Made by a program: the position numbers and the translations under genes. A stretch of DNA of 64,000 nucleotides from Telopea speciosissima (lineage: Eukaryota; Streptophyta; Magnoliopsida; Proteales; Proteaceae): positions 61,568,871 to 61,632,870 of the forward strand of contig NC_057918.1 of the NCBI RefSeq assembly GCF_018873765.1, read 5' to 3'. Positions 11,203 to 54,391 of the stretch are shown here, one piece after another. A model generated the notes under the pieces. It worked only from the letters and a program-made list of their open reading frames with translations, had not been told where the DNA came from and ran no database searches. Each line of letters begins with the position of its first letter. Positions within the stretch are counted from its first letter, which is position 1.

Positions 11203-12954
11203 ATGGAGACTCGAACGCAGCAACGTTCCTCAATAATATCCCGTGTTAACTCGTTCGTTGGAAACAGCCGAGTCGGAAAATATTTCAAACTCGACAAACG
11301 TGGCTCCACTTTCACAACCGAACTCCGTGCCGGAACAGCCACGTTTCTCACCATGGCTTACATCCTAGCAGTCAACGCAAGTATTCTCACTGATTCCGGC
11401 GGAACCTGTACCGTCGCCGACTGTGTCCCTCTCTGTAGCAACCCTTCCATCTCTATCTCCAACTGCGCCGCCTCAAACTTCACGGTGGTCCAACCCGGTG
11501 TGTCTTGCAAATTCGACCCCGTCAACCCGGGTTACACAGCTTGCCTCAACGGAGTCCGCCGTGATCTAATCGTCGCCACCGTCGCTTCTTCCCTCATCGG
11601 TTGTGTAATCATGGGTGGTTTCGCTAACCTTCCCTTAGCTTTAGCTCCTGGTATGGGCGCAAACGCTTACTTCGCTTACAGCGTTGTTGGCTTCCACGGC
11701 TCCGGCAACGTCACTTATGGAACAGCTTTAGCAGCGGTTTTCATCGAGGGGCTTATTTTTCTCTTAATTTCCGCAATTGGGTTAAGAACCAAACTCGCTA
11801 AACTCGTTCCTAAACCCGTCCGAATCTCTTCCTCTGCCGGAATCGGTCTTTTTCTCGCTTTTATTGGACTTCAAAGCGGTGAAGGACTCGGACTCGTTAG
11901 TTTCAGTTCTGCCACACTTGTTACAATCGGCGCGTGTCCAGCTAACTCACTCGCCTCCGTCGCTCCTGTAATAACTTATCCAAACGGCACCGTTGCTCTT
12001 ATGCCTGGTGGTACAGTTTCCGGTGGCATTCTTTGTTTAAATAACCAGATGCTTAGTCCGACTTTCTGGTTGGGTGCAGTTGGTTTCGTAATAATTGCTT
12101 ATTGTCTTGTGAAAAACATTAAAGGAGCGATGATATACGGTATAGTATTTGTAACAGCGATTTCATGGTTTCGTAACACTCAGGTTACCGCTTTCCCTAA
12201 CACTGACGCGGGCAACTCGGCTTATCAGTATTTCAAGCAAGTAGTTGACGTTCATGCCATCAACAGTACTAAAGGTGCGTTGGATTTTACGGGTATAAAT
12301 CAAGGGTATTTTTGGGAAGCTTTGGTAACATTTTTATATGTAGATATACTTGATACTACCGGAACGTTATATTCCATGGCTCGGTTCGCCGGGTTTGTTG
12401 ACTCAAACGGCGATTTCGAAGGTCAATATTTCGCTTTCATGTCTGATGCGACATCGATTGTGATTGGTTCGTTGTTGGGAACTTCACCGGTGACGGTTTT
12501 TATAGAATCGTCGACGGGGATAAGGGAAGGTGGGAGGACTGGATTAACGGCGTTAACGGTCGCTGGATTTTTCTTTTTGTCATTCTTTTTTACGCCGTTA
12601 TTGGCTTCGATACCTGTTTGGGCAGTTGGATCACCGTTGATTTTGGTTGGGGTTTTGATGATGAGATCAGTGGTGGAGATTGAATGGAATGATATGAAAC
12701 AGGCTATACCAGCGTTTGTCACTTTGATATTGATGCCAATGAGTTATTCGATTGCTTATGGATTGATTGGAGGGATTGGTACTTATATTGTTTTGCATTT
12801 ATGGGATTGGGGAGAGTTGGTGTTGGGGAAATTTGGGATTATAAAAATCAAAAAGGAGGAAAAACATGATTTGGTAGGGGTAAATGAGTCAAATGAAGAA
12901 CTTGGTCTTGAAGATGGGGACAAGAAGGGATCCGAGATTCAATTAGCAGTTTAA
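11203..12954 (+). CDS. AZG1: Adenine/guanine permease AZG1
   Basis: Complete intronless 583-codon gene for a plasma-membrane purine permease of the AzgA-like branch of the nucleobase:cation symporter-2 superfamily. Arabidopsis AZG1 takes up adenine and guanine and also transports cytokinin; that role is family knowledge. In the protein, TM1 begins near residue 46 ([13 protein letters not shown]). [15 protein letters not shown] (145-159), DILDTTGTL (382-390) and the [15 protein letters not shown] block (433-447) are the conserved substrate-site segments. A cysteine-rich extracytosolic loop (69-115) and a plant-type second loop (225-285) match AZG1 rather than bacterial AzgA. The highly charged C-tail (546-580) is cytosolic. 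The start is the first ATG after the TATA box and CT leader, followed by the SRVGKYFKL segment typical of AZG1 N-termini. Length agrees with Arabidopsis AZG1 (about 580). No frameshift or missing motif; very likely functional. AZG2 is the alternative but lacks this close fit. Confidence 0.95.
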
Positions 12955-17560: not shown

Positions 17561-18178
17561 TCAACAATCATTTAAAAATGTATTAATATGCATTAACATA
17601 ACCATTCAACCAAGAAAACATATGTGATAACATTCAATATCACTTCACATTCTAAGTTTCCCTCGTAACTTAAAATGCGAATTGAAATCTATTAATCCAT
17701 AACACATAACTTAGCATGTCAGAGTTCATTAAATGTATCATAACTGGAAGGAATATGTTGTCTGTCTCTTCCTTTTCGTGAGGGATAAAACTTTCAATAT
17801 ATTTGGTCACTTGATTATCATATCCATTCATATACCGATCAATTTAGTGTGAATCACATACTGCAGAAACTATCCCACTGACACATTGACACTCCCACTC
17901 TTTATGTCCACTCCTTATCTCATAAGAAATGAATATGATTCATATCTTCAATAAACTCAAGTATTAGCCTATTAGAGTTCTACAAGAACTCAAAAAGATT
18001 CTTACACTCACCATTGATAGGAGACAAGGGTTCTTTACCGTCTGAAACAATCCTTTTAACCCACTTGCCACTTGCTTTAATATTATGAGGGATATATATA
18101 TGATAGCACCGTAATAAAATTTCATCACATGTATAAGGCATCTCATAAATATAACAACTCATGTAAAGAATAAATATG

Positions 18179-18266
18179 GGTAATAACGTTTGTGAACCTC
18201 AGGGGGATACATAGAATTTTTTAAAATTGGGGGTTATAATTATACTTTCGATATACCTCAGATATT
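18179..18266 (+). mobile_element. MULE terminal-repeat remnant (truncated)
   Basis: ACGTTTGTGAACCTCAGGGGG... CTTTCGATATACCTCAG matches the right TIR of the MULE at 28.7 kb but lacks the last about 25 bp that the right-hand repeat copy still carries (21781-21887). Confidence 0.6.
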
Positions 18267-18704
18267 ACTAACGTGATATATTCATTTTATTATATGGGGA
18301 GCCCACCTAGTGGATAAAGATGGGTAAGAAAAGTATTGATCACAATGGAAATAAAGTAATAGGATAACTTTTTTCTCTTTCCATTTGGTACACATGAAAA
18401 AAGGCAAATTAAGGGACAAATAATAATAACAATAATGGGATCAAATAAAAGGCATAGTTTAAAAGGCAAATGTTGGATAAAGATCCATCCATCCATCCAT
18501 CGATGGATGGTAGACTTTGGATATTCTTCTTTCTCTCTCTCTCTCTCTCTCACATTAACACAAACATGATTATTTTCTAATATCACTATTGGTTCATTAA
18601 CATTCTCATTCACCACCTAAAACCAAAACCCATATAGAGAGATAGAGAGAAAGAGGTATATATATATAAATGTAGAGTACTAGAAAGAGAACATATTCTT
18701 GAAG

Positions 18705-18824
18705 ATGATGAAACAATGTGAAGGTATTGGTTGTTTGTTATGTGTTATTTTTATGATCACTCTTCTCTTGTCTGTTAAAAGATGGAAGAATAGAAAAATT
18801 AGAAAAAAGATGTTTTTACTTTAG
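18705..18824 (+). CDS. Hypothetical 39-aa membrane-peptide ORF
   Basis: ATG ATG start 36 bp after a TATATATAAA run. The predicted peptide has a hydrophobic segment (residues 9-24, GCLLCVIFMITLLLSV) followed by a basic tail KRWKNRKIRKK. The duplicate ORF at 22305 is also open. The two differ by five replacement and two silent changes, which does not suggest protein-level constraint. I do not recognise a family; it may be chance. Confidence 0.2.
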   Translation: MMKQCEGIGCLLCVIFMITLLLSVKRWKNRKIRKKMFLL

Positions 18825-18984
18825 GGAAGAGTAGTTTCAAAGAAGGATTGGATCTTTTTATCATTGATAGATAGATAGGTAGGGACACTTCTTTGTGAGG
18901 TTCTTAAACAAACATGTGGCTATTGGGTATGCCACGTGTCTTGCATTATTTGTTGCTTCTAAGGGCAATAAGCATTTTATAAAG

Positions 18985-20323
18985 TAGGGTTAGTAGTTAA
19001 GGGTTATACCTAGGTACGTGGGATAGATTATTTTGATATCTACTCCCCAGTCTGTCATTTGACAACGATAAGGATTTTTCTTGTCATAGCATCTATTGAG
19101 CACTATGTTGTGCATCAAATGGATATAAAAACAACTTTTCTAAATGGAAATCTAACAGAAGAAATCTACATGAACCAACCTGAAGGGTTTGTCATGGAAG
19201 GTTCTGAAAAGAGAGTTTATAAATTAAACAAATCTTTCTATGATCTTAAACAAGTACCTAAATTGTGGCATGAGAAGTTTGGCAAGACAGTGAAGAGCCT
19301 TGGTTTTCGGACTAGCAACTCAGATAAGTGCCTTTATTTTTTATCTGAGTCAAACAAGGTCACGATTATTTGCTTGTATGTAGATGACATGTTGATTCTA
19401 GGTTTTGATCTTTCTATAGTGAGTGACATTAAATAAACCTTGTCCAAAGAATTCGACATGAAAGATCTTAGTGTGGTAGACACCATTCATGGGATGAGAG
19501 TAAGTTTCAGTGAGCAAGGATCACCCTTAGTCAGTCTTATTACATTGAGAAACTACTTTCTAGTTGAGGGTACAATTATTGTAAATCGATTGAGACGCTC
19601 TATGACTATAACAAACGGTTGAAATCTAACACAGGTGACACCATGAATTAGTTAAAATATTATAAACTGATTGGTAGTCTCATGTATGTAATGAGTTGCA
19701 CTAGGCCAGACATAGCCTTTACGGTAGGCATGTTGAGTCGTTTCACTAGTAATCCTGGAAAAGAGTATTGGGATATCCTGACGAGGCTGATGAGATATTT
19801 TAAAGGTATTCTAAGTTATGCTCTCTGTTATACTGGACATCCTCCAACTTTGGAAGGATATTCTGATGCATCTTGGTGTTCAGATTTGGGAGACAGCAGA
19901 TCCATCAGCTATTATGTATTTACACTAGGAGGAGCAGCTGTAGCATGGAAGTCCAGGAGACAGACTGGTATTGCTCTATCATCTATAAAATCAAAATTTT
20001 ATGCTCTAGCTTCTGCGGGAGATAAAGTAGAGTGGATAAAGGATCTGATCATGGATATTCCATTGAGGAGTTTAAAGTTAAACTCTATATCTATATTCTG
20101 TGATAATTAAGCAACAAAGACGATAATGAATAACTCACTCTTTAATGGTAAGAGGAGACACATCAGGCTGAAATAGGTCATGCTGAATTATCGAACAGAA
20201 CAAGGGATTATCACTTTGATTGATGTGAAATCAAAGGATAATACGACAGATACTCTTACAAAGGGATTGAACAAAGATTGAACATTCAAAACTATAGGAG
20301 AAATGGAGTTAAAGACCATTTAG
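18985..20323 (+). pseudogene. Copia reverse transcriptase-RNase H, 5'-truncated
   Basis: Begins in the RT domain (GYT-VRGIDYFDIYSPV) and continues through HQMDIKTTFLNG (about 19110-19150), FYDLKQVPKLWHEKF and the catalytic YVDDM box at about 19377-19391. RNase H follows: SCTRPDIAFTVGMLSRF, YSDASWCSDLGDSRS, and a C-terminal DVKSKDNTTDTLTKGL. It is broken by an in-frame stop near 19434, a frameshift between about 19560 and 19680, and stops near 20108 and 20177. Gag, protease and integrase are absent upstream; the fragment starts abruptly at the repeat junction. Its 3' LTR follows. Confidence 0.9.
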
Positions 20324-21397: not shown

Positions 21398-21780
21398 AAA
21401 ACTTCCAATATATTTGGCCACTTGATTATCATGTCCATTCATATACCGATCAATTTAGTATAAATCACATACTGCAAAAACTATCCCACTGACGAAATGA
21501 CACTCCCACTCTTTATGTCCACCCCTTATCTCATAAGAAATGAATGTGATCCATATCTTCAATAAACTCAAGTATTAGCCTATTAGAGTTCTACAAGAAC
21601 TCAAAAAGATTCTTACACTCATCATTGATAGGAGGCCAGGGTTCTTTATCATCTGAAACAATCCTTTTAACCCACTTGCTTTAATATTATGAGGGATATA
21701 TATAGATGATAGCACTGTAATAAAATTTCATCGCATGTATTAGGCATCTCCTAAACCTAACAACTCATGTAAAAATAAAT

Positions 21781-21887
21781 ATGGGTAATAACGTTTGTGA
21801 GCCTAGGGGGTACACCGAATTTTTCAAAACTAGGGTTTATAATTACACTTTCGAAATACCTTAGGGGTGGTATGTATAAATTACCCA
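21781..21887 (+). mobile_element. MULE terminal-repeat remnant (end intact)
   Basis: Ends CCTTAGGGGTGGTATGTAT followed by AAATTACCC, the same terminus as the right TIR of the MULE at 27369-28712. No facing partner TIR was found, so it is a solo end. Confidence 0.6.
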
Positions 21888-22122
21888 ATAAATATTTAAA
21901 TACATATTCATTTTATTATGTGGGGAACCCACCTAGTAGAAAAAGATGGATAAAAAAGATATTGATCACAATGGAAAGAAAGCAATATGATAACTTTTTT
22001 CTCTTTCCATTTGGTACACATGGAAAAAGGCAAATTAAGGGACAAATAATAATAATAATGGAATCAAATCAAGGCATAATTTAAAAGGCAAATGTTGGAG
22101 AATGATCCATGGTGGACTTTGG

Positions 22123-22164
<42 letters not shown>

Positions 22165-22304
22165 CGTGGTTATTTTCTAATATCACTACTGGTTCATTAA
22201 CATTCTCATTCACCACCTAAAACCAAAACCCAATTATAGAGAGACAGAGAGAAAGAGGTATATATATAAATGTAGAGTACTAGAAAGAGAACATATTCTT
22301 GAAG

Positions 22305-22424
22305 ATGATGAAACAATGTGAAGGTACTGGTTGTTTGTTATGTGTTATTTTTATGATCATTCCTTTCTTGTCCCTTAAAAGATGGAAGAATAGAAAAATT
22401 AGAAAAAAAATGTTTTTACTTTAG
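22305..22424 (+). CDS. Hypothetical 39-aa ORF, second copy
   Basis: Counterpart of the ORF at 18705 in the right repeat: same start context and length, hydrophobic core and KRWKNRKIRKK tail, with L/P, T/I and V/L replacements in the hydrophobic part. Probably not under selection. Confidence 0.2.
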   Translation: MMKQCEGTGCLLCVIFMIIPFLSLKRWKNRKIRKKMFLL

Positions 22425-22584
22425 GGAAGAGTAGTTTTAAAGAAGGATTGGATCTTTTTATCATTGATAGATAGATAGGTAGGGACACTTCTTTGTGAGA
22501 TTCTTAATCAGACATGTGGCCATTGGATATGCCACGTGTCTTGCATTATTTGTTGCTTCTAAGGGCAATAAGCATATTATAAAG

Positions 22585-26282: not shown

Positions 26283-27368
26283 ACCACATATGATAACTAA
26301 GGCACCTCATGAAGTATTACCACCAAAAAAAAAAAAAGACACCTCATGAAGTTACTTACATATGGGCAGCCTCAAAGCTTATTGAGAAGACAAAATTGGT
26401 CTCCCATAGAGGTTATTCACCAAGCACAAAAGCCATTCGAGGAGTTTATAGCTACATTAGACACACTTCTTGATCATAATAATATTTAACCCCCTCCTTT
26501 GCAATGGCGGCGTAATTACCTATAGCGGACAACGGTATTGGTGGGTTCGGTATTGTGTTTTGTGATCATAGTGGAAACCCTCTAATTGTAGTTTCAGATC
26601 CTTTAGATATAACACCTCGCATGCATGTTATGTTTATTTATTATTTTATTGATGATTACTGGTAATTATGTTTAATTAAAGATAATTTTGATCAATTAAG
26701 TTAAGACATTATTAATTAGATTTGATGATGTTTAGGGGTGACAGCACCATACTGGGAGCCACATGATGGCTTTTGAAGTAGCCACCATTTGCATGGGGAA
26801 GGAGGAGATGGCAAAGTTGGTTCAACCACATGGCTGGAAGGAAGAGCTAGCCATGGACAAATTTGACATTTAGGGGTTTGTGGGACTTAAAACCATATTG
26901 GCTTGGATTGTACCTATTGTATTGTATTTAACGAGGTTTGTATGATTGTAGAAGAGCATCCATACACATGTTGTTAAACACAAACATGTATTTTATTGAG
27001 AAAAGGTCCATGCATGACTATGTACTATAGTACAGTGTATGTATGTTGTGTGAGGAAAGCATTGGTATGAATTGTATGAAATGATGTGTTTATTGAATGA
27101 TGCTTGATTTATATGTTGTTATATGAATAAAATACCATGGAAATGCTTAAGGTGTTTACTTGATAATATTTGAATGTTGTATGAAGTATGACGTGAGATG
27201 TTTATATAAAATGATGATATGCATATGGTTTATGAATGTGATATGAAATCTGATATATATCATGAAATGAAATATGTATGAGAACGATTTCACAAGTTAT
27301 GCCAAGAGAAAGTAATGAATGATTATGAAATGAAAATAGTAATGAGGAGATGGAAGTAAATGAATAAA

Positions 27369-28712
27369 GGGTAATTTACGCATACCACCCCTGAGGTTTG
27401 ACGAAAGAATGATTTTACACCCCAGTTTTGAAAAATTCTGCGTACCCCCCTGAGGTTTACAAACGGTAACAAATAAACCCATTCCGTCAATTTATGACTA
27501 ATACTGTTAAAATCAACAGGTAAAGTGATAAAAATGCCCCTTCAAGGGGAAAAAAAAAAAACCTACAACTCATCTTCCCCAAATCGATTGGGGAAAATGA
27601 GTTATAGGTATCCCCATCGATTGCTCCATCCACTATATCAAGGTCTCTAAGAACTCTCTCTCTCTTTTATTCGTTGCGATCAATCATAGAATACTTTTAA
27701 ACATCAATTAATAACTGATGATAAGTTGTTGTTTTGTTATGCAGATGGCAGAAACTCAAATTCTGAACTTGAGTTGGTGTTCTAAACTATCACGAACTCC
27801 AGACTTGTCAGCAAATATAAATTTGGAGGAATTAATTCTTGAACACTGTGAAAATTTGGCTACAATTGATGCATCCATTGGTCATCTTACGAGGTTAATC
27901 AAATTGAAGATGAGGGGCTGTACGAGTCGAATGCATCGCCCAACCAGCATTTTTAAGTTGAGATCTCTCAAAATACTTGACATTAGAGATGCAAGAATCA
28001 CCCAGTTGCCAGAAACCTTGGGCCGCTTGGAGGTCTTAACGGAGCTATACATTGACTTCTCTGAAACACGGTTACCTAGTACAATACGGTATCTAAAAAA
28101 GCTCGAAACTTAAGTGCTGAAAGTTTTTCAAGGGTCTAGGAATTGTCTATATATTCTCGTAGTAAAGGAATGTCTCATATGGAGTTAGAGAAGGATCTCC
28201 CAGAGCTTCCTCCAAGTTTGAAATATTTGGATGTTTCAGGATGCAAAATGAAATCACTCCCATGGCTGCCAAATTTGACAAATCTGACAACTCTGGAGGT
28301 ATTGCAACCAATCAATGGATAAGCAGTTGGAACTTTTCTTGATATATTTGCAGGAGATCAAGACCCAGATGAAATTTTGTTCTTTTTGATTAAGAAGTAA
28401 AAGAAAAAGACGAAAGGAATCGAGATGTTCCATTAGAAGCCATGGATGGAGCAATCAATGGGGATACCTATAACTCATCTTCCCCAATCGATTTGGGGAA
28501 GATGAGTTGCAGGTTTTTTTTTTTTTTTTTCTTTCTTGAAGGGGCATTTTTGTCACTTTACCTTTTTATTTTAACAGTGTTAGTCATAAACTGACGGAAT
28601 GGGTTTATTTGTTACTGTTTGTAAACCTCAGGGGGGTATGCAGAATTTTCCAAAACTGGAGGGTAAAATCATCCTTTCGTCAAACCTTAGGGGTGGTATG
28701 TGTAAATTACCC
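27369..28712 (+). mobile_element. Pack-MULE with captured TIR-NBS-LRR gene fragment
   Basis: 1344-bp element with long terminal inverted repeats (left 27369-27632, right 28443-28712; about 90% identical by eye) starting GGGTAATTTACGCATACC and ending GGTATGTGTAAATTACCC. A perfect 9-bp TSD ATGAATAAA flanks it (27360-27368 and 28713-28721), diagnostic of the Mutator superfamily. No transposase; the interior is host-gene-derived LRR sequence (27745-28306) with a piece of the preceding intron. Each TIR holds a 37-bp palindrome (27567-27603, 28472-28508). The same TIR end occurs at 21.9 kb, so the family is dispersed. Confidence 0.9.
27745..28306 (+). pseudogene. Captured LRR fragment of a TNL resistance gene
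   Basis: A splice acceptor (GTTATGCAG, ending 27744) opens an exon whose frame reads ILNLSWCSKLSRTPDLS, LEELILEHCENLATIDASIG, LRSLKILDIRDARITQLPE and LPSTIRYLKKLET, several plant TNL-type leucine-rich repeats. A stop at 28111-28113 ends the frame; after a shift, LPELPPSLKYLDVSGC and LPNLTNLTTLEVL (about 28195-28306) continue the LRR pattern. TIR, NB-ARC and most LRRs are absent. Not a functional receptor; it lies wholly inside the MULE TIRs. Confidence 0.85.
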
Positions 28713-30165
28713 ATGAATAAAAGAGAAGTATGTATGTATATATGTATGTATGGTTAATGGTAACTTTGTAAAACATCCATGTGGTCACCGTCTCTTTTCC
28801 AGTAGAGGGATATATTGGATGAGAGTCAGGCCTTATGATGAGTAGGACCACATCCGCCCCAGGGCACCAGTTGCCTGGAATAAGGTATAGATGTGGCCTA
28901 CAATGAACTAGAGCTTGTCCTTCCCCCAGGGCTATGGTGCATGGACACATGAGAGTAGACATGTATAGTATTATGTTTATAGATGATGGTTCCTCCCCCA
29001 GACCTCAGTTGTCTAGATACATGGGAGTGGAGCCCCTTTATATTAGGATGATGTTTATTTGATGAGGGTTCCTTCCCCAAGGCTCCGGTACTTAGTTACG
29101 TAGAAGTGGAGCTCGTCTATAATGCTCATTATATCATCTTCCCCAAGGCTGCAACGCCAATGAATACAAGTAGAATAATGATACGATGTCGACTACTACC
29201 CTCAACAGATTGTGCACTACGGTAATTCATTAAATGGCCAAGACCTAACCTAACAAATTAAGGAATGAATTTTTATGGTTTGTCATTTATGTCTTTGTAT
29301 CCATTATTGTATTTTTGAATGTTTGTGTGTATAGAATCATGTGTACCTCATTGGGCATAAGCTCACCCCATATATATTGATATTTTCAGATGAGGAGATT
29401 GGTAACGAGGCTTGTACTAATCTAGTGTACGTGAGTTGAGAACCCAAGGTTAGGGCCTAAGGGCCCAAAATACATTTCATGATGTTAAGAACAGTTGACT
29501 TTTGAATTGTAAATAACACTTTGGTATGTTTGATTCAGACTTTTGTATATGCATAAATGTAGTTATTTGACACCAATACATAAATTAACTCTTAAAATAT
29601 AACTTAATCTTTATGCTTTCGTTGTGTTATATGCAATACTGGGACTTTTGCTACTACTTTTACATGTTTATTTGTGACCTTCTAGGTCAGCGCTTACGAG
29701 CGCAGTGCACAACCTTGTCTGGGTTTGGGATGTTACATTAGCAATCCCCTCTATCATAGTTTGAGAAACAATGGCGATCCGAGGTCTTCCCTAGGAGAAT
29801 ACAAATAGCTTGGATCATATCATTGTCGAATATGATAATAGGGAGTTGGTTAGTTATTTAGCTAGTGGTATTCTGAATCCGTCTCTATTAGTGGCTCCTA
29901 TTTTGCATGATATTGTCCATGTCGCATCCTATTTAAAATCATGTAGTTTTTATTTTATTCCAAAGGAAGCAAAGGAAGGAAATAGTTTGTCTAACTCCCT
30001 TGCTCCGAAGGGTCGATCCTTAACATGTAGGACCGAATGGCCTATATCCACTACATGGAATCAACGGAAACCACTTGCTACAAGTTGATTCAGGCTTGAC
30101 CCCATTACATGATTGAGCACATATATAAAATTATAGGATTTTAAATTCATTGAAAGAAGTGTGTT

Positions 30166-52599: not shown

Positions 52600-53433
52600 C
52601 AAGTGGATATAATTCAAGATTTGGATGAAATTTTACACATACGCTCAAAATAGTCAAATAAGGTCATCCTAAAAGTTCCGGCTCAAATCGGGAAGGTTCG
52701 AGCACCGAAATTATGCTAGGGGCAAAATGGTCATTTCACATTTAATGGAGACCAAACATCATCATATTTGAATGAAATCTTACGTACAAGTTTAAAATAT
52801 CTAAATAAGGTCATCCTAAGAGTTTCGGCTCAAATCGGGAAAGTTTAGACACAGGGATAATATCATAAGCAAAATGCTCATTTCGCATTAAATGGTGACC
52901 AAACAGCATCGGATATAAATGAAAATTTATGCACAAACTCAAAATAGATCAATAAGGCCATCGTAAGAGTTTTAGCTCAAATCTGAAAGTTTCTGATACT
53001 AAAACAGCATCAAGGGCAAAATTATCATTTTCTCCAATAGCATCGCATTTGGGTGAAATTGTGTCTGGATTGAGAATGGCTAAATAAGGTTATCCTAGGA
53101 ATGTTTAACAACACAAGAAAAAGGAAGACACCAAATCGGGAAAGTTTAGACACAAGGATAATATCAGAAGCAAATTGCTCATTTCACATTAAATGGCGAC
53201 CAAACAGCATCGGTTATAAATGAAAATTTATGCACAGACTCAAAATAGATCAATAAGGCCATCGCAAGAGTTTTAGCTCAAATCTGAAAGTTTCTGATAC
53301 TGAAACAGCATCAAGGGCAAAATTATCATTTTCTCAAATAGCATCGCATTTGGGTGAAATTGTGTATGGATTGAGAATGGCTAAATAAAGTTATCCTAGG
53401 AATGTTTAACAACACAAGAAAAAGGAAGACACC
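52600..53433. repeat. Tandem repeat array, about 122- and 301-bp periods
   Basis: 52832-53132 and 53133-53433 are adjacent, nearly identical 301-bp units (AAATCGGGAAAGTTTAGACAC start, AAGGAAGACACC end). Each contains, and is preceded by, diverged units of about 120 bp sharing AAATAAGGTCATCCTAA, GGCTCAAATCGGGAA and GGGCAAAATGGTCATTT. Non-coding higher-order array. Confidence 0.8.
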
Positions 53434-54391
53434 AATGATTTAATTTTATGGTTTAACAATATAAGAAAAATAATAATGGAGATAAAAAGAAATATAAACA
53501 TAATAATAAAATAAGCTAGATCAAAACCTCACTTGAACATCATAGCTAGCTAGGTAAGTTTTTTGATTGCTTCTGTAAATAGGGATTTTTTGGGACTTCC
53601 ATTAGTAAGCCAGATAGGACCTATTTTTTTTATTAATAATTTATCTCTGCAGGAAATTATATAATGAAGATAATTAATGAAAAAATGAAGCTAAAAAATC
53701 TGCAAGATTAATCTAAAAGTCAATAGATTAGTAGAAGAACTTACCAATTAAAATCACCCTTTATCGTCCTCAAAAACTGTAGATTGGTGAGGTGCTTAAG
53801 CTAGTCATGGGGATTTTTATGCTGAGGCCACCCTACATGTCTTAGGTGTTGACGGGAGACAAGGTATTGGAGATCCTCTTCCCCTTTTATATAATCTAGC
53901 AGTTGTAAGCAGTGAACAAACAATGGCAGTGAAAACAAAATGATAATCAACTACCTCAGGTCCAAAAGTCGCCTCCAAACGTTGTTGCCCAACCCCGATG
54001 TTCTCCTGCAATCATTGTATGCTCCGACGACTATCGTCATATCTCAATAATGGTCGTTCACGAGGTTGCTTTCTTGTCTCTCTCAGAATACACATGAATG
54101 ATGGTTGTTCTTATGCATACCACAACCAAGCTGGCTAGAACCCCTTTCCCTATTATAATCCCATAAGCTCAAATTCAGGGGACTTTTAGCACGTCAAACA
54201 GAGACGCACAAAGTGATTAATAGGGGCACGAGCTAGGGCCAAGAGGCGTGCAGGCGCGCAACTAAGCCGATGCGCACACGGTAGGCTGATGTGTGTGCAC
54301 CATTGATTATGGATTAAAAATTTAAACCTCCACAAAATTGCGAGCGTCCGTCGCAAATCTCTTTCATCCCAAATCAAACCAAAACCTTAAT
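53434..54391. other. Gene-free stretch
   Basis: No domain recognised in the short frames (for example minus 53817-54011). If the primer-binding-like site at 54392 is real, this is the degenerate internal region of a minus-strand LTR element. Confidence 0.35.

Follow-up and report, generated by a model that had tools for sequence, protein, structure and literature searches.

How did LRR-coding sequence of a TNL (TIR-NBS-LRR) resistance gene come to lie between two long inverted repeats on contig NC_057918.1 of Telopea speciosissima, and does the resulting structure do anything for its host? We addressed this question in a stretch of 64,000 nucleotides (C3:61568871-61632870; hereafter the window, to which all plain coordinates refer) and in the whole genome, which was searched as 823 Mb in 1287 contigs. 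The structure, a Pack-MULE-type element of 1344 bp at 27369-28712, is almost certainly a non-autonomous Mutator-like element (MULE) with long terminal inverted repeats (TIRs) that carries pieces of two host genes, i.e. a Pack-MULE, and that has been copied to at least four sites. A preliminary description of the locus had proposed gene capture by a Mutator-like element, which is supported by sister copies, by NLR genes that lack the TIRs and by an empty site; it had described the cargo as a TNL fragment, which is correct for the TNL part but incomplete, a second gene, a cytochrome P450, having been overlooked.

Table 1 The element and its borders, in window coordinates
Feature	Position	Strand	Basis
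Left target-site duplication, ATGAATAAA	27360-27368	.	Perfect 9-bp match to 28713-28721; present once in empty site L058
Left terminal inverted repeat, 264 bp	27369-27632	+	Arm-to-arm alignment
Last bases of the TNL exon that precedes the intron, CTATATCAAG	27633-27642	+	Alignment with four donor-type loci
Complete TNL intron, GT...AG, 102 bp	27643-27744	+	Same boundaries in four aligned donor-type loci
TNL LRR exon fragment, ~560 bp	27745-28304	+	Alignment and Pfam; right edge uncertain by a few bases
Antisense fragment, N-terminal coding part of a cytochrome P450 gene	28307-28420	-	109/114 identical to L057:1103-1216
Inner extension of the family TIR arm, ~21 bp	28421-28442	-	Both arms of siblings L023 and L024 contain it
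Right terminal inverted repeat, 270 bp	28443-28712	-	Arm-to-arm alignment
Right target-site duplication, ATGAATAAA	28713-28721	.	Perfect 9-bp match to the left one

When the two arms were aligned with each other, 245 of 264 aligned bases were identical, with 6 gap columns (K2P 0.077), and both arm lengths fall within the 100-500 bp typical of Pack-MULEs; the ~265-bp TIRs and the perfect 9-bp target-site duplication (TSD) reported in the preliminary description are borne out. At their inner ends the arms are unequal: an extension of ~21 bp, which the sibling elements L023 and L024 have on both sides, occurs on the right side only in the window element, and the corresponding inner ~21 bp of the family's left arm is absent at the TNL junction (27632/27633). 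In a scan of the window for 9-bp duplications beside inverted ends (span up to 6 kb, 24-bp inverted ends, at least 20 of 24 matching), this element was the sole hit, and the same scan yielded 0 in each of 10 first-order random sequences. Each arm contains a near-perfect palindrome (27561-27609 and 28466-28514), and the inverted match at this site, TIR bases 193-241, recurs in many sibling TIRs.

The unit has moved as a whole. A search with the complete 1344 bp gave at least four full-length copies, at identities of 100, 94, 93 and 92% (40 of 2836 candidates scored), and a search with the insert alone, with all 27 of 27 candidates scored, returned the same four, located on contigs C3, C5, C5 and C9. 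All three sister copies of the window element have perfect 9-bp TSDs of their own, so that the four duplications, ATGAATAAA, ATATTAAAT, TTTATATTA and ATAAGAAAA, are all different. When the window flanks were joined with one TSD kept, an uninterrupted match across the join was obtained at 35 or more other places: among the 66 rows obtained (40 of 120 candidates scored), 35 span the join, 2 are the halves of the window itself, 3 end at or just past the join and 26 cover the right flank only. Of three spanning sites that were fetched, L058 has a single exact ATGAATAAA, with surrounding identity of 91.5% on the left and 87.4% on the right; L060 has a 1-base change in the nine, and L059 has a 4-bp gap. 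Given these matches and the empty site L058, the element jumped into a high-copy repeat. The flanks themselves, 27069-27368 and 28722-29021, belong to such a repeat, with 75-87% identity across the insertion point elsewhere.

The TNL part of the insert runs from the end of one exon, where the donor-type genes read ...W N Y I K (with exon-sized frames in L012 and L013), through an intron into the LRR exon. Pfam LRR_14 was detected at 27745-28113 (E 5.7e-13), and among proteins of solved structure the TNL Roq1 is the closest in sequence (phmmer 1.1e-27, a sum over several stretches). The LRRs of the preliminary description are thus present, but what it took for an intron end is a complete intron; likewise, its TNL core was extended to 28442, whereas the TNL sequence ends near 28304 and is followed by the antisense P450 piece. 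Because the intron is retained in full, the capture must have been from DNA and not from spliced RNA.

When the insert (27632-28305) was searched alone, five places besides the four elements matched from its base 1, namely, C11:44562118, C2:22903212, C2:3386535, C2:3404409 and C10:8495572 (27 of 27 candidates scored), followed by weaker matches to other places, so that TNL homology starts exactly at the TIR edge. Among these NLR loci (L012-L015 and L034), the domain scan covered L012 and L013. L012, on C11, shows in order a TIR domain (6.5e-43), NB-ARC (7.1e-30), WHD_ROQ1 (6.1e-16) and LRRs, in open exon-sized frames, and is accordingly a source-type TNL locus with its LRRs at the matching place; L013, on C2, shows NB-ARC, WHD_ROQ1 and LRR models, with no TIR domain found within 9.9 kb. 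The inverted repeats of the element had no match better than E 0.1 in any of the five loci, so the arrangement of the element does not recur at these loci. Nor does LRR homology run past the repeats: in 2.4 kb on each side, read in six frames, no LRR, NLR or transposase model was found at E up to 0.1, the sole flank hit being RVT_3 on the right side (E 0.0036, below its cut-off), in agreement with the earlier observation that the LRRs lie between the TIRs only.

Compared with four aligned donor-type genes (L012-L015), all four copies share a 3-bp deletion early in the LRR exon and a 1-bp deletion near 28110 that breaks the LRR frame; as the 1-bp deletion is common to the four, the frame was broken before amplification. 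Individual copies have decayed further, with a TAG at 28137-28139 in the window copy only and a separate stop in the LRR exon of L011. A 131-aa open reading frame at 27718-28113 was rejected as a coding unit, since its start lies within the intron and its end coincides with the shared frameshift. Pairwise comparison of the copies, summed over 6 pairs that are not independent, gave 49 non-synonymous and 21 synonymous differences (~277 non-synonymous and ~79 synonymous sites per pair), which is no sign of strong purifying selection on the LRR fragment, at low power.

Distances among the copies are 0.031-0.041 (K2P), and those between the copies and L012 are 0.109-0.115 (~90% identity). A tree built from nine sequences unites the four copies (support 100/99) and places the C11 gene L012 as their sister (100/99). 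The donor search proposed in the preliminary description has thus recovered NLR genes without the TIRs, but the nearest of them, L012, is probably the sister of the true donor and not the donor, which was not found in the genome search with the insert. L012 was rejected as the direct donor because its divergence from the element exceeds that of the P450 source (~90% vs. ~96% identity).

The piece of the second gene, to judge from the sequence comparison, is what remains of a capture that preceded that of the TNL. The right-hand part of the element (bases 939-1344, at 28307-28712) is shared with sibling elements that have a different core, and this core is cytochrome P450 sequence (Pfam p450, 2e-10 in L017 and 2.3e-12 in L026). 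The P450 core of L017 was found in at least 6 elements including L017 itself, on C9, C4, C65, C8, C7 and at C1:65295802 (40 of 97 candidates scored); in the C4 element, one TIR arm only was located. A P450 gene at C1:31320554-31321315 matches positions 33-794 of the 816-bp L017 core at 96% and lacks the TIR-arm ends of the core; it sits among related P450 matches near 31.3-31.5 Mb, and a long reading frame is open in the fetched locus (L057; Pfam p450, 4.6e-46), where the element TIRs have no match better than E 0.27. A second P450 place, C2:41745116-41745531, weaker than the C1 gene at 86% over positions 33-449, also begins at the arm edge.

The four TNL elements keep positions 681-816 only of the P450 core, antisense to their TNL part. 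Because the P450 sequence is contiguous both in the siblings and in the gene, the P450 was captured first and the TNL later. Read by eye, the left junction has a 1-bp match (A) and the right one a match of ~3 bp (ACC). An acceptor-like TTTGCAG near 28343-28349, considered as the end of a second intron in the core, was rejected, as it lies inside the antisense P450 piece. The divergences offer a counterpoint to this order: the P450 piece, although captured earlier, is ~96% identical to its source, whereas the TNL piece is ~90% identical to its best relative. The mismatch could be accounted for if TNLs evolve fast or if the true donor has been lost.

The history that best fits these data starts with an element of the TIR family that acquired ~760 bp of a P450 gene. 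In one of its descendants, ~650 bp of this piece and the innermost ~21 bp of the left arm were then exchanged for a TNL segment comprising an exon end, an intron and the start of the LRR exon. After the 1-bp deletion had broken the LRR frame, a transposase acting on the TIRs, presumably of the MuDR type and supplied in trans, spread the product to at least four sites. Capture may have taken place during repair, with synthesis switching templates where 1-3 bp match, a process that suits the short matches seen by eye at the two junctions.

The TIR family has other passengers. Cores between the same TIRs contain a legume-lectin domain in L022 (Lectin_legB, 1.2e-17) and a Stress-antifung domain in L024 (1.1e-7), such that the family carries at least four kinds of host-gene domain (TNL, P450, legume-lectin and Stress-antifung). 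Among ten single open reading frames from L017, L021, L022, L024, L025, L026 and L028, 4 had a Pfam hit and 6 had none; at E up to 0.01, Pfam detected nothing in L021 (six frames), L025 (2 of 6 frames) or L027 (2 of 6 frames). Both arms were located in 16 family members. Ten of these are bordered by a perfect 9-bp TSD at the predicted ends, which in L025 is a run of A; in L023 the duplication is displaced by one base, and the remaining five (L018, L019, L020, L026 and L027) lack a perfect 9-bp TSD even when such a displacement is allowed.

No transposase was detected in 27633-28442 in six frames, where the only hits were LRR models and DUF5412 (E 0.061, below its cut-off). MULE transposases are abundant in the genome, some with long open frames, and the PF10551 hit nearest to a scored TIR hit lies 23 kb away (150 of 827 PF10551 and 40 of 2652 TIR candidates scored). 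As no transposase is tied to the TIRs, the element is assigned to the superfamily by the lengths of its TSD and TIRs and by its habit of capture. In a database of viral contigs, from which records of the plant's own genome are possibly excluded, the TIR had 0 matches and the LRR protein had 13 pattern matches, 0 of them confirmed.

A miniature relative of 104 bp lies on the minus strand at 21783-21886; over its outer ~100 bp it matches the TIR with 80% identity, and its ends (GGGTAAT.../...ATTACCC) are bordered on both sides by a perfect 9-bp duplication, ATATTTATT. Its paralogous counterpart at 18184-18261 lacks the outer end. The same part of the window contains a direct repeat of ~1.2 kb (17787-18984 and 21398-22584, 88% identical), between the units of which remnants of a Ty1/copia reverse transcriptase and RNase H were recognised by eye (open reading frames 19059-19436 and 19682-20110). 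Elsewhere in the window are a tandem duplication of ~304 bp (52831-53134 and 53132-53435, 96% identical) and an open frame of 583 aa at 11203-12954 (Pfam Xan_ur_permease, 6.3e-25).

Other origins of the structure have to be weighed against capture by a MULE. A TNL gene decaying in its original place, bordered by chance by two MITE-like inverted repeats, would have a broken LRR frame, as observed; this scenario, the chance of which we put at next to nothing, is refuted by the four whole-unit copies with separate TSDs and by the empty target repeats, and it fits neither the 2.4-kb flanks, which are free of NLR sequence, nor a homology that begins exactly at the TIR edge. It is also very improbable that the TIRs define an element of another superfamily that makes 9-bp duplications by chance. 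Such an assignment would accord with the lack of a linked transposase among the candidates scored, but it is at odds with the perfect TSDs at the predicted ends of 10 of the 16 members (one of them the run of A), with the abundance of MULE transposases in the genome, and with the 264-270-bp TIRs and repeated capture of host genes, which fit the MULE features outlined in PMC3310237.

A fusion, which we consider unlikely though worth keeping in view, would lead to the same order of parts, left TIR, TNL, P450 end and right TIR, by another route, whereby two neighbouring family elements, one of them with a P450 end, bracketed a TNL locus and moved jointly. Pack-TYPE elements are described as acquiring sequence when insertions close to each other are mobilised (PMC8903248). 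However, no TIR remnants are present in L012-L015 or L034, among which the true donor is not certainly included, and the left arm is cut within the family arm with a 1-bp junction match, so that a fusion would need a further deletion. Uptake of the TNL segment into a P450-bearing element remains our preferred account of the two-gene Pack-MULE.

With respect to function, the element most likely has no present role for the host and is a decaying transposon with gene fragments. The preliminary description had tentatively proposed that the long TIRs could yield small RNAs matching TNL transcripts. It is distinctly improbable that the element is an active silencing locus, with its RNA giving rise to small RNAs against TNL (and P450) transcripts. 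Genes captured by maize transposons, Pack-MULEs among them, are portrayed in a review as reservoirs of siRNAs able to silence the donor (PMC13317346), and 69 of 654 exact 21-mers of the window copy are common to L012 and 51 of 654 to L013, so that antisense transcripts could, on sequence grounds, in principle find targets. Against this, antisense transcription would be needed, and in the predicted RNA fold of the element (obtained with no shuffles at that length) the long stem is formed by the paired TIRs, leaving the TNL part in the loop, so that siRNAs from the hairpin would be expected to match TIRs and not TNLs. More speculatively still, and with very little probability in our view, the TIR family might repeatedly capture pieces of defence-related genes (TNL LRR, legume-lectin, Stress-antifung and P450), the multi-copy TNL-LRR element either storing LRR sequence that returns to TNL genes by gene conversion or supplying small RNAs directed at TNL transcripts.

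TNLs are typical of dicots, and GC-rich capture has been described for grass Pack-MULEs; unlike in the latter, G+C between the TIRs here (0.373) equals that of the window (0.372), and the capture is not GC-rich. In other respects the element resembles the Pack-MULEs of rice and other plants, with long TIRs, a 9-bp TSD, no transposase, an intron-bearing fragment of a host gene and several copies; it differs in its cargo, a TNL LRR exon plus an antisense P450 piece. MULEs, as characterised in the portion of PMC3310237 used here, have TSDs of 9-11 bp and TIRs of typically 100-500 bp, and Pack-MULEs are non-autonomous and carry genes or gene fragments. Host-gene fragments of this kind exist here outside the TIRs as well, in the NLR loci and the P450 gene, and, by the features of PMC3310237, the element is a Pack-MULE in each clearly tested respect, the transposase link aside.

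We found no description of a Pack-MULE with a TNL fragment in those parts of the literature on Pack-MULEs and NLRs that were covered, though such a case may have been published elsewhere; the main text of PMC8903248 mentions neither NLR nor LRR nor resistance, and four exact TIR strings matched no paper. In rice, similarity to MULEs occurs in or beside NLRs, and the evidence was deemed insufficient for NLR fusions driven by MULEs (PMC5819176, in the passages drawn on).

The closest parallels are with three systems, each compared on the basis of part of the respective paper. With the Pack-MULEs of rice and other plants it has in common that one element combines sequence from more than one source locus, as noted for multi-locus Pack-TYPE elements (PMC8903248). 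A grapevine family that carries exon and intron sequence of cellulose synthase (PMC2528002) is likewise a dicot MULE-type family with host exon and intron; the captured gene is a different one, and replacement of one capture by another is not described in the portions of that paper at hand. In pepper, NLRs were retroduplicated by LTR retrotransposons through RNA, with intron loss as the mark (PMC5664825); there, too, a transposon carries NLR sequence to new places, whereas the element analysed here keeps its intron, indicative of capture from DNA. Knowledge of the Pack-MULE class as such is unchanged. What sets the element apart, and is its best feature, is the readable order of captures: siblings in the same genome make it a clean case of P450, then TNL, then amplification, and thereby a tangible model in which to study how MULEs exchange one cargo for another and whether LRR fragments carried by transposons affect the repertoire of resistance genes.
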